Below, one piece after another: positions 29,372 to 46,078 of a DNA stretch of 64,000 bases. The position numbers and the translations under genes are program-made. The notes beneath the pieces are model-generated. The model searched no databases and was not told the origin of the DNA. It saw only the letters and a list, made by a program, of their open reading frames with translations. Source of the DNA: Cobetia amphilecti (GTDB taxonomy: Bacteria > Pseudomonadota > Gammaproteobacteria > Pseudomonadales > Halomonadaceae); the NCBI RefSeq assembly GCF_020217465.1, contig NZ_CP084115.1, positions 1,240,001 to 1,304,000 of the forward strand, read 5' to 3'. How positions within the stretch are numbered: position 1 is the first letter of the stretch; each line of letters begins with the position of its first letter.

Positions 29372-30538
29372 ATGTCTGATGCCGATTCTTCCGCCGCTGC
29401 TTCACCTCTCTCAGCCGCTGCCGCGCCCGGCGCCGCCCTGGCAGAGGACTGGGCGCCCACTGCCACGCGCGAGCGGCTCGTCCAGCGCGCGCGTCTGATC
29501 AGTGAGGTGCGCACCTTCTTCGCCGAGCGTGAGGTGCTGGAGGTGGAAACGCCGGTGCTGGGGCAGGCCGGGTCGACGGATGTCGGTCTCGCGTCATTGT
29601 CACTGACCGCGCAGTTGCCGGGCGAGCGTGAGCGCGTGCCGCTGTGGCTGCAGACATCGCCGGAATTTCACATGAAGCGTCTGCTGGCGGCCGGCAGCGG
29701 GCCGATCTTCCAGATCGCGCGTGCCTTCCGTGATGGCGAGGTCAGCCGCCGCCACAATCCCGAGTTCTGCATGCTGGAGTGGTATCGCCCCGGCATGTGT
29801 CTTGAGGCGCTGATGACGGAGACCTGCGAGCTGATCCGGCGCGTGATGGCGCTCGGGGCACAGCTGACCGGTAAGCCGTCGCTGCTCAGTGAGTCTCAAG
29901 ACGCCCAGATTGGGCCTGCCATCACGCCTTACCGTGCGCTGTTTCGCCGTGTGCTGGCGCTGGACCCCTTCACGGCCTCGCTCGAGGAGCTGCGAGCCGC
30001 CTGTGCGCGAGAATGTGAGGTCGCGGCTGACGACTGGTCGCATGAGACCTGCCTGGATGCGCTGATGAGCCTGGTGATCGAGCCGACTCTTGGCTCAGGG
30101 TCACAGGGCGCGGAAGCACAGGGCGCAGGAGCGCAGGGGCGAGGGGCACAGGGGATAGAAGCGCAGGGAAAAGCTACCGTGGAGCTGGTCACCGAGTACC
30201 CGGCCGCGCAGGCAGCCTTGGCGCGCAAGCATCAGGACAGTGAGGGTGATTGGGTGGCGTCGCGCTTCGAGGCCTACGTGGCGGGCATCGAGCTGGCCAA
30301 CGGCTATGACGAGCTGACTGATGCCAGCGAGCAGGCGGCGCGCTTTGCCGAAGACAATGCCGCGCGAGTCGCCCAGGGCCTGCCTGAGGTAGCGGCGGAC
30401 CAGCGTCTGGTGGCGGCCTTGCAGGCGGGAATGCCAGCGGGGAGCGGGGTGGCGCTGGGGCTGGATCGTCTGATCATGCTGGCGCTGGGGGAGCGCGATA
30501 TCTCGGCGGTCATCGCTTTCCCGGCATCACGTGCTTGA
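29372..30538 (+). CDS. epmA: EF-P--lysine ligase EpmA (GenX/PoxA)
   Basis: 388 residues from ATG 29372. A class II aminoacyl-tRNA synthetase catalytic core without an anticodon domain: motif 2 FRDGEVSRRHNPEFCMLEWY, ELANGYDELTD and motif 3 GVALGLDRLIMLALGE. It activates beta-lysine and joins it to EF-P Lys34. It is about 60 residues longer than E. coli EpmA because of an Ala-rich N-terminus and five GxxxQ pentapeptides (about 241-265). Confidence 0.94.
   Translation: MSDADSSAAASPLSAAAAPGAALAEDWAPTATRERLVQRARLISEVRTFFAEREVLEVETPVLGQAGSTDVGLASLSLTAQLPGERERVPLWLQTSPEFHMKRLLAAGSGPIFQIARAFRDGEVSRRHNPEFCMLEWYRPGMCLEALMTETCELIRRVMALGAQLTGKPSLLSESQDAQIGPAITPYRALFRRVLALDPFTASLEELRAACARECEVAADDWSHETCLDALMSLVIEPTLGSGSQGAEAQGAGAQGRGAQGIEAQGKATVELVTEYPAAQAALARKHQDSEGDWVASRFEAYVAGIELANGYDELTDASEQAARFAEDNAARVAQGLPEVAADQRLVAALQAGMPAGSGVALGLDRLIMLALGERDISAVIAFPASRA
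30092..30166 (+). repeat. 15 bp tandem repeat (x5) encoding GxxxQ units in EpmA
   Basis: Five consecutive 15-mers, each ending in CAG (30092-30106, 30107-30121, 30122-30136, 30137-30151, 30152-30166), encode GSGSQ, GAEAQ, GAGAQ, GRGAQ and GIEAQ. The insert interrupts an otherwise conserved synthetase core. Confidence 0.9.
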
Positions 30539-30621
30539 GAGCCGGCATGAGAGGCAGCTTTTGATGTGATTTGCGTGAATCCCAGCGTTTATTACCAACA
30601 CGCTTGCCGAGCGTGCGTCGA

Positions 30622-30960
30622 CTAGACTGGAGAAGTCAGCGTGGAGGGTTGGCGCTTGCCTGCGAAGCCCGCAGACAAGGTGATGGCAGGACCAGGGCAA
30701 TGGTCGCAGCGGGTCTTCTTTTATCGGGCATGGTGAAAGAAGGCGACAGATGATGGCTCGAACCCTCGGAGCCTTCGAGGCATCATCCGGCAATCGCGTC
30801 GTTAGAGCGCGACGCCCGTCATGGAGGACTCTGATCTGTTTGGGCACTGAAGGTAGTGATCACCCCGATGGCAACGTTCATCGCGGGGCAAGGCAAGAAG
30901 GCGAGGGGCGCGGTCAGTCTCCTGTCGTTAAAAAGGGAAGCCAGGGGCTTCCCTTTTTTT
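30622..30960 (+). ncRNA. Candidate structured small RNA with own terminator
   Basis: A 486 bp gap between epmA and psd. CTAGACT (30622-30628) may be the -10 element. Downstream are hairpins at 30764-30780 (CTCG/CGAG core), 30796-30815 (GCGTCG/CGACGC) and 30863-30888 (CCCCGATG with CATCGCGGGG), then a strong terminator. Short open frames here have no conserved look. Several GGA triplets occur, as in Csr/Rsm-binding RNAs, but not clearly in loops. Expression is inference only. 30539-30621 shows nothing else. Confidence 0.4.
30931..30960 (+). terminator. Strong Rho-independent terminator
   Basis: AAAAGGGAAGCC pairs with GGCTTCCCTTTT around AGG and ends in a seven-T run. It is nearly 400 bp after epmA, so it probably ends a separate or long transcript. 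The A-run makes it usable also for psd on the minus strand. Confidence 0.9.
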
Positions 30961-31025
30961 ATGCCAGGGTTTCATGTGCGGGCTTTATGCACGAGTGTCG
31001 TGCTCGCGCTGCGCCAGGCCTGACC

Positions 31026-31964
31026 TTATTTCTCGTCTGTGGTCGGCGTGTCCTGCGCCGTCTCTGTCGCATGCTCTTCTGGCTCGGTCGGGGCCGGTGC
31101 TGTCGCAGACGGGCGCATGCCGAGTGACTGACCCATGCTGACCTTCTGGCCCGGTGTCAGGGCGTCATCGAACTCGACGCTGTCCGGGAAGCACATCACC
31201 ACGGTGGAGCCGAGCTGGAAGCGGCCCATCTCGGCGCCATGCGCCAGCTCGATGAGTTGATCGAAACGGGTCGTCTCGACATCACCGGAAAGCGGCGTGA
31301 CCTGACCACTCCAGACGGTCTTAATCGCCGCGACGATCATCGCGCCCACCAGCACCATGGCCATCGGGCCGTGTTCGGTCTCGAAGATGCACACCAGTCG
31401 CTCGTTGCGCGCGAAGAGGCCCGGCACGTGCTTGGCGGTGGCTTCGTTGACCGAGAACAGGCGTCCCGGAACATAGGCCATCTCAACTAGGCGACCGGCC
31501 ACCGGCATATGGACGCGATGGTAGTCCTTCGGTGACAGATAGACGGTGGCGAAGCGACCGTTGCGGAAGGGCGCGGCGCGCTCTTCACTGCCACCCAGCA
31601 ACTGGGTCAGCGAGAATGCCTGACCCTTGGCCTGTACGAGAGTGCCGTGTTCGATGTTGCCGAACTGGGACAGTACGCCATCGGCCGGTGACACCAGGCC
31701 TTCGCCGATGGGGCGGGCATCCGCCTTCAGGGCGCGGGTGAAGAAGTCATTGAAGCAGGCGTAGGCACGCGGATTCTCCTCGAGCGCCTCGTTCATGTTG
31801 ACGCCGTAGGCCTTGATGAAGCGCTCGATGAAGGTGTTCTTGACCCACGGATTGGTGCAGGCGGCGACACGGCCGATGAGGCGTGAGATCAGGTGCTGGG
31901 GCAGTGGGTACTGGCTCAGGGAAAACAGCTTGGCGCGATCCACGATGGCGATCCTTGCAGGCAC
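31026..31964 (-). CDS. psd: Phosphatidylserine decarboxylase proenzyme
   Basis: 312 residues. [29 protein letters not shown] (Asp and His of the protease-like triad) and the self-cleavage site [11 protein letters not shown] (Gly-Ser bond, about 263-264) are intact. The proenzyme splits itself to form the pyruvoyl group and makes phosphatidylethanolamine at the inner membrane. The C-terminal 30 residues are a Pro/Thr/Glu-rich tail without conserved features. In enterics psd follows rsgA; here the rhodanese and the permease genes separate them. Confidence 0.95.
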
Positions 31965-31975
31965 TTTCAGGAATG

Positions 31976-32003
31976 AAAAGCCCGCTCCTCGAGAGGGCGG
32001 GCG
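31976..32003 (-). terminator. Minus-strand terminator between rhodanese gene and psd
   Basis: On the minus strand GCCCGCCCTC pairs with GAGCGGGC (one bulge) around TCGAG and is followed by TTTT. It would separate rhodanese and psd transcripts. Confidence 0.7.
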
Positions 32004-32092
32004 TTGGCCGGCAACAGCGGCGGCCAGCAGTTGGGCTGCACCTTAGCCCATCGTCAATAACGGCTCAAGCCTGCGAATTGCCGCAGCCGTGG

Positions 32093-32145
32093 GCCTGGCG
32101 ACAGTTGCCAGGCAGGCCATGCGTGTCATCCCGGCATGGCCTGCC
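32093..32145. other. Two adjoining perfect hairpins
   Basis: GCCTGGC (32093-32099) pairs with GCCAGGC (32107-32113), and GGCAGGCCATGC (32111-32122) pairs with GCATGGCCTGCC (32134-32145). The two share three bases, so they are alternatives. No T-run follows on the minus strand. They lie 50 bp after the rhodanese stop codon. Confidence 0.6.
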
Positions 32146-32195
32146 TTGGCGTGCTGGCGCCGGACAGGGGCGTTCCAGTCTGCGATCAAGCGCCT

Positions 32196-33059
32196 TCAGC
32201 GTTCGATGGGCGTATCGTCACGGTTGCCCCATTCCTTCCAGGAGCCCGGATAGGCGCGCACATCGCTGAAGCCCAGCGCCTGACCCACCAGCCAGGTCAG
32301 ACCGGAGCGGTGATGGCTCTGGCAGTGCGTCACGATGTGCTGTTCGGGGTTGAGGCCGCGAGCGCCCAGTTCCGTCACCAGCTCCGCATAGTCGCGGATG
32401 CGCAGGTTGCGCTCACGGTCCATGGCCTCGGTCCACTCGAAATGCACGGCGCCCGGGATATGGCCGAGGCGGGCGTTCTGGCCCTTCTCGCCACGATACT
32501 CTTCCGCGGAGCGCGCATCCCAGACCACGACGCTTTCCTGCGGGTCCTCGGTCGCCAGTCGATCGAGAATGTCTTCCCGCGTCGCCATCACGCTGGTGTC
32601 CATGTAGGCGGCGTGATACTCGCTGGGGCTCCAGTCGCTGGCGGTGTCACTCAGCGGCAGGCCATCGCCTTGCCATGCGTGCAGGCCACCATTGAGGTAG
32701 CTGTAGCGGGTATGACCGAGCAGCGCCAGGGTCCACAGCAGGCGTCCGGCCCAGCCGCCGCCTTCATCGTCATAGGCCACCACATGGCTGTCGCGGGTGA
32801 TGCCAAGGGCTGACATCACGCCAGACAGTGCCTCGGGGCTCGGCACGCCGGGAATGTCGTCGTCATTGCTGCCGACCAGCTGCTTGAAGTCGAGCAGGCG
32901 AGCGCCGGGCACATGACGCGCATGGCTCTCGGCTTTCAGTGGCACGTCGACGATCACGATATCAGGATGGTCGAGCATCTCCGCGAGCTGCTGCGGTTCG
33001 ACGATCAAGGGCAGCAGGTCGGCTTCCGAGGGGGAAGGGTGTGAAGAATCGTGAGACAT
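32196..33059 (-). CDS. Two-domain rhodanese sulfurtransferase
   Basis: 287 residues forming an inactive N-terminal (about 15-140) and a catalytic C-terminal rhodanese domain (about 170-285). The active-site loop is CQSHHRSGLT: the Cys is present, but the loop is CQSHHR and not the CRKGVT of thiosulfate sulfurtransferase or CGSGVT of 3-mercaptopyruvate sulfurtransferase, so donor preference is open. By family it moves sulfane sulfur to cyanide or thiol acceptors. It lies upstream of psd, as in several Pseudomonas-type genomes. Confidence 0.88.
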   Translation of the reverse strand: MSHDSSHPSPSEADLLPLIVEPQQLAEMLDHPDIVIVDVPLKAESHARHVPGARLLDFKQLVGSNDDDIPGVPSPEALSGVMSALGITRDSHVVAYDDEGGGWAGRLLWTLALLGHTRYSYLNGGLHAWQGDGLPLSDTASDWSPSEYHAAYMDTSVMATREDILDRLATEDPQESVVVWDARSAEEYRGEKGQNARLGHIPGAVHFEWTEAMDRERNLRIRDYAELVTELGARGLNPEQHIVTHCQSHHRSGLTWLVGQALGFSDVRAYPGSWKEWGNRDDTPIER

Positions 33060-45829: not shown

Positions 45830-46078
45830 ATGTCCAAAGGTCAATCACTCCAGGACCCGTACCTGAACATCCTGCGCAAGGAACGTATCCCGGTCTCGAT
45901 CTTCCTGGTCAACGGCATCAAGCTGCAGGGCCAGATCGAATCCTTCGATCAGTTCGTGATCCTGCTGCGCAATACTGTCTCCCAGATGGTTTACAAGCAC
46001 GCTATCTCGACCGTGGTGCCGTCGCGCAATGTGCGCCTGCCGGCCCAGGATCCGAGCGTGCCGTCCACAGAAAGCTGA
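45830..46078 (+). CDS. hfq: RNA chaperone Hfq
   Basis: 82 residues. [20 protein letters not shown] holds the conserved Gln8 and N-terminal helix, [20 protein letters not shown] is the Sm1 motif and [12 protein letters not shown] the Sm2 motif. The C-terminal tail is short. Hexameric Hfq pairs small RNAs with mRNAs. ATG follows CGGAGAGTCAC; hflX starts 15 bp after its stop, so both are probably one transcript. Confidence 0.98.

Follow-up and report, generated by a model that had tools for sequence, protein, structure and literature searches.

A candidate structured RNA of the genus Cobetia in the gap between epmA and psd

The window analyzed in this study is a stretch of 64,000 nucleotides from the genome of Cobetia amphilecti, which comprises 4.16 Mb in a single contig. 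The gap considered here (30539-31025) lies between the stop of epmA (30538) and the stop of psd (31026). The left neighbor was assigned as EpmA with TIGR00462 (352.5 bits against a cut-off of 286.9), and the right neighbor, psd, encodes phosphatidylserine decarboxylase (PF02666) and is convergent to both epmA and the RNA described below; the RNA is thus flanked by two ordinary housekeeping genes. The window's EpmA contains an insert of low complexity rich in Gln, Gly, and Ala (30099-30175), which is shorter in the relative G030 and absent in the relative G068.

The initial annotation had found no credible gene in the gap, and our results agree with it, as none of the three open reading frames tested matches a protein family. 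These frames would encode 125 amino acids (30750-31127), 106 amino acids (on the minus strand), and 60 amino acids, respectively, and all three are interrupted by stops and by indels not divisible by three in the divergent relatives G057, G068, and G006. In G030 and G045, which are nearly identical to the window here, the 106- and 60-amino-acid frames are uninterrupted and the 125-amino-acid frame contains a stop. A protein gene in the gap was rejected, given the lack of a family match and of a conserved reading frame. The features that we assign to the gap are listed in Table 1.

Table 1. Features assigned to the epmA-psd gap (window coordinates)
Feature	Position	Strand	Remarks
Imperfect dyad GCGTTTA-N6-ACACGCT, candidate activator site over the -35 position	30585-30604	+	Invariant, with fixed spacing, in 6/6 genomes
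CTAGACTG, candidate -10 element (TAGACT, 4/6 to TATAAT)	30622-30629	+	Invariant in 6/6 genomes
Predicted RNA, ~328 nt (roughly 330)	30635-30962	+	Both ends predicted; start placed from the -10 element
P0, 5' hairpin	30635-30653	+	6 pairs; 94.4% of cells paired; both-side changes in 2 pairs
P1, core hairpin, 13 pairs, invariant AUCGGGCAUG around the loop	30713-30744	+	97.4% of cells paired; both-side changes in 3 pairs
P2, core hairpin, two helices flanking a mismatch, loop end formed by invariant UCGGAGCC	30749-30787	+	91.1% of cells paired; both-side changes in 8 pairs
P3, core hairpin with GGC/GCC at its base, then a bulged A and a further helix	30789-30816	+	95.0% of cells paired; both-side changes in 2 pairs
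GGAGGA purine stretch, 3' of P3	30823-30828	+	Invariant in 6/6 genomes
P4, hairpin in the 3' part	30866-30883	+	6 pairs; 100% of cells paired; both-side changes in 1 pair
Intrinsic terminator, 13-bp stem with T7	30930-30960	+	T runs of 7, 7, 7, 6, and 7 in five uncut copies

A promoter-like block, GCGTTTA-N6-ACACGCT-N17-CTAGACTG, is located, in the window, 47-91 bases past the epmA stop codon and is invariant, with fixed spacing, in all six genomes of the genus, while the intervening bases vary. In every copy, CTAGACTG begins 17 bases and TAGACT 18 bases past ACACGCT. The -10-like CTAGACT that the initial annotation had pointed out is indeed present (30622-30628), and it resembles CTATACT, the -10 sequence of the stationary-phase sigma factor. 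When TAGACT is taken as the -10 element, the center of the dyad falls near -41 of the predicted start, the position near which class II activators sit. A standard consensus scan (29400-32300) found no sigma-70 promoter, and a canonical -35 element is absent at normal spacing. The RNA is likely to be made from its own promoter. The dyad pattern was also searched across the genus genomes as a marker of a regulon, and no regulon was found, because each of the other matches is in coding sequence, in the groES-groEL interval, or in a hairpin that resembles a terminator. The match between groES and groEL is a GCGTTT-N7-AAACGC dyad observed in G068 and G006 (L134 1501-1519 and L129 1501-1519).

The terminator was likewise placed correctly in the initial annotation, at almost 400 bp from epmA (~390 bp in our measurement). 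It is the only one detected between 29400 and 32300, as against a mean of 1.4 in shuffled sequences, and the same scan found none between epmA and the RNA. Its T run is T7 on the plus strand versus T5 on the minus strand, and the latter suggests that it may serve psd too. The RNA was placed on the plus strand because of its wobble pairs, with the longer T run pointing the same way: G-U occurs in 32 cells of 12 pairs on this strand and would read as A-C on the other, and the reverse case (A-C on this strand) occurs in 3 cells of 2 pairs.

P1, P2, and P3 are adjacent and form a core (30713-30816), in which 94.3% of the 228 cells pair in the six-sequence alignment. Both-side changes were observed in 13 of the 39 core pairs (18 cells), a level reached by 0 of 500 shuffles, although the structure was drawn by us from the same six sequences, which favors it, and these sequences represent approximately three groups, so that the independent events are fewer than the cells. 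The compensated changes are found in each of the three hairpins and across these approximately three groups of the genus. When the partners were slid as a control, only 33-59% of the cells paired and only 1-4 pairs had both-side changes. A five-sequence count on a poorer alignment gave 89.7% pairing and seven both-side pairs, which 3 of 500 shuffles reach. Essentially these three hairpins also emerge when the cores are folded singly and unaided, in four cases out of six (z = -2.68 to -4.24), and RNAalifold likewise predicts P1-P3 on the full RNA. The GGAGGA stretch is unpaired in our model; in the RNAalifold prediction it falls within a hairpin of 3 bp, partly in the loop and partly in the stem. 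Covariation gives less support to P0 and P4: 97.2% of their 72 cells are paired and three pairs have both-side changes, which 11 of 500 shuffles reach, and the number of changed cells is reached by 76 of 500.

Identity to the three divergent relatives, in 25-base bins, is 0.56-0.88 over 30711-30835 versus 0.08-0.32 over 30536-30585, and the 5' part of the RNA is also poorly conserved (0.12-0.48 over 30636-30685); the sequence around the core has drifted while the three hairpins keep pairing. The 5' part of the G057 copy contains approximately 48 extra bases (L012 1058-1105). The case from the window sequence alone is weak. The fold of the predicted transcript in the window (330 nt) is only moderately stable (z of -2.87, a stability reached by none of 100 shuffles), and the 110-nt core ranks 21st in GC-corrected stability against 1162 overlapping segments; it is conservation in the relatives that indicates more than chance stems. 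Taken across these genomes, the sequences make it very probable that the epmA-psd gap holds a structured RNA under selection.

The initial annotation had proposed an undescribed structured RNA at this site and had named stems that mutate without compensation in relatives as evidence against it. The comparison supports the proposal, in that all three core hairpins are compensated, the promoter-like block and the terminator are conserved, and no Rfam family matches. The stems themselves needed partial revision. Of the three that had been drawn, the one at 30863-30888 is real, its conserved part being P4, while CCTCG/CGAGG (30764-30780) and GCGTCG/CGACGC (30796-30815) are alternative registers that the relatives do not keep, pairing as P2 and P3 instead. 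P1, the largest conserved hairpin, had not been recognized.

The core was found with a covariance model in all six Cobetia genomes, with one match in each (E = 7.6e-30 or better). Five copies are located at the epmA-psd site, and the sixth, that of G006, is cut by the contig end; this assembly break falls inside the terminator (L099 1; L014 2457). When 201 genomes of the family were searched at the DNA level, the RNA region was recovered at 97-98% in G045 and G030, a part of it at 67% in G068, and no more than the terminator part in G057 and G014; G006 was missed. The covariance model gave no credible copy in 269 other genomes of the family (best matches, E = 0.029-0.098 in six genomes) or in samples of 390 genomes of the order and 274 of the class (weak matches, E = 6.4e-4 to 0.0077 in five genomes); among the sampled genomes are that of the window itself and some from the family. 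The number of weak matches outside the genus is about that expected by chance for so many genomes, or smaller. Eleven weak loci were checked, of which 10 yielded alignment rows, and most of the invariant letters are absent from the six alignments shown. One locus of an order member (G541, L109 1501-1582) has a P1-like hairpin with nearly the same loop letters and lacks P2 and P3; the resemblance is probably due to chance. Since the searches of more than 40 genomes used stricter filters, remote homologues may have been missed by them.

Where epmA and psd are neighbors in other genera (17 loci), the gap is occupied by other sequence and has no copy of the RNA. Inspection by eye of the sequence past psd at 27 related loci, only 22 bases long at one of them, showed no copy either, and nothing above 12.2 bits was found with the covariance model in 29 related loci. 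The RNA has no match in plasmid or phage collections and no exact-pattern match in viral contigs, and there is no sign of a mobile origin. It is present once in this genome and is confined, among the genomes searched, to the genus Cobetia. With so narrow a range, a single genus, it exemplifies a regulatory RNA that arose recently or evolves fast while its neighbors are conserved housekeeping genes.

Neither the gap nor its counterparts in the five relatives match any Rfam family at the gathering score, and the entries listed when lower scores were admitted fall well short of the cut-offs. 6S RNA, which is likewise a stable structured RNA gene, was rejected as an identity; its fold differs from that of the Cobetia RNA, and the one RF00013 match of the genome is elsewhere (G000:C1:31169-31351, 105.5 bits). 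Membership in CsrB/RsmZ (RF00018 and RF00166) was also rejected, since no covariance-model match was obtained at the site and the window RNA has no excess of GGA. The two families resemble the Cobetia RNA in having several hairpins and a few GGA motifs, and CsrB is of similar length (model of 356 positions). In the titles and abstract openings of the literature searched, no small RNA of Cobetia is described. As far as these and the Rfam searches show, the RNA represents a previously uncatalogued family, and a well-supported RNA gene, with coordinates, a covariance model, and testable loops, is hereby added to a genus without a small RNA in that literature.

If the gap held no RNA gene, the stems would be due to chance or the site would be a small protein gene. 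We regard this as very improbable: the 125- and 106-amino-acid frames are open in the window and the 106- and 60-amino-acid frames in the near-identical relatives, but none has a family match, all are broken in the divergent genomes, the 125-amino-acid frame is stopped even in the closest ones, and the hairpins carry compensated changes. It is also quite unlikely that the hairpins belong to the 3' untranslated region of epmA, transcribed by read-through and serving mRNA stability or the release of a 3' fragment. The common strand, a gap that begins at the epmA stop, and the lack of a detected terminator between epmA and the RNA would suit such an arrangement; however, conservation in the gap is among its lowest immediately past epmA, the RNA is preceded by the promoter-like block with its invariant letters and fixed spacing, and the 17 loci with the same gene pair in other genera have no copy.

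A protein-sequestering RNA of the CsrB/RsmZ type, whose GGA-bearing loops and GGAGGA would titrate CsrA, seems just as doubtful. The loop of P2 has an invariant GGA in addition to the GGAGGA stretch, the loop of P0 has a GGA in the sequences aligned by RNAalifold, and A-N-GGA occurs somewhat often in two of the relatives (24 and 10 of 300 dinucleotide shuffles reach it, respectively). On the other hand, GGA occurs in only one loop among P1-P3, and in the three of the six sequences counted it is not enriched in the window RNA (6 against 8.2 in shuffles) or in G057 (8 against 11.5), the count in G068 being 10 against 7.3 (42/300). The invariant block also lacks the GacA box (TGTAAG-N6-CTTACA), and the site has no Rfam match. 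The CsrB and RsmZ models, the only two among CsrB, CsrC, RsmX, RsmY, and RsmZ searched genome-wide, found nothing above the cut-off in the six genus genomes; as the RsmZ model reached its cut-off in 0 of 14 control genomes, a vacant post is at most hypothetical. A structured RNA that acts without pairing, such as a ribonucleoprotein scaffold or a small-molecule sensor with a core that binds protein or ligand, is rather unlikely. The core varies in its stems and keeps its loops unchanged, a pattern also seen in RNAs that bind proteins or ligands, whereas no known family is matched and no downstream gene on the plus strand is available for control in cis, psd being convergent. Invariance of the loops would suit protein binding no less than pairing. 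A bolder proposal, which we hold to be unlikely, is that of a genus-specific RNA class in which the three-hairpin core is a protein- or ligand-binding module under an activator-dependent promoter and fills a global regulatory post, such as that of CsrB/RsmZ, with an unrelated RNA.

A small RNA that acts in trans, with the invariant loops and GGAGGA as contact sites, is the simplest interpretation. That the RNA is an independent, structured regulatory small RNA of ~328 nt acting in trans, probably assisted by Hfq, is the account that we moderately favor, and we give an even chance to trans base pairing as its mode of action. A regulator binding to the dyad near -41 would switch on transcription, and the RNA would end at the U-rich terminator, which could hold Hfq. 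The hairpins would then present AUCGGGCAUG, UCGGAGCC, and GGAGGA as seeds for pairing with target mRNAs in trans. The RNA shares with Hfq-dependent trans-encoded small RNAs an intergenic unit of its own, a promoter-like block, conserved loops, and a Rho-independent terminator with a U run (T7 in the window and T6-T7 in four relatives). It differs from them in that it matches no Rfam family and its link to Hfq is a predicted one, and it is longer than most Hfq small RNAs. hfq is encoded in all six genus genomes. In the window, it is found at 45848-46033 on the plus strand (G000:C1:1285848-1286033), approximately 15 kb past the RNA, and in G057 it is approximately 1.5 Mb from the RNA on the opposite strand, a sign of rearrangement.
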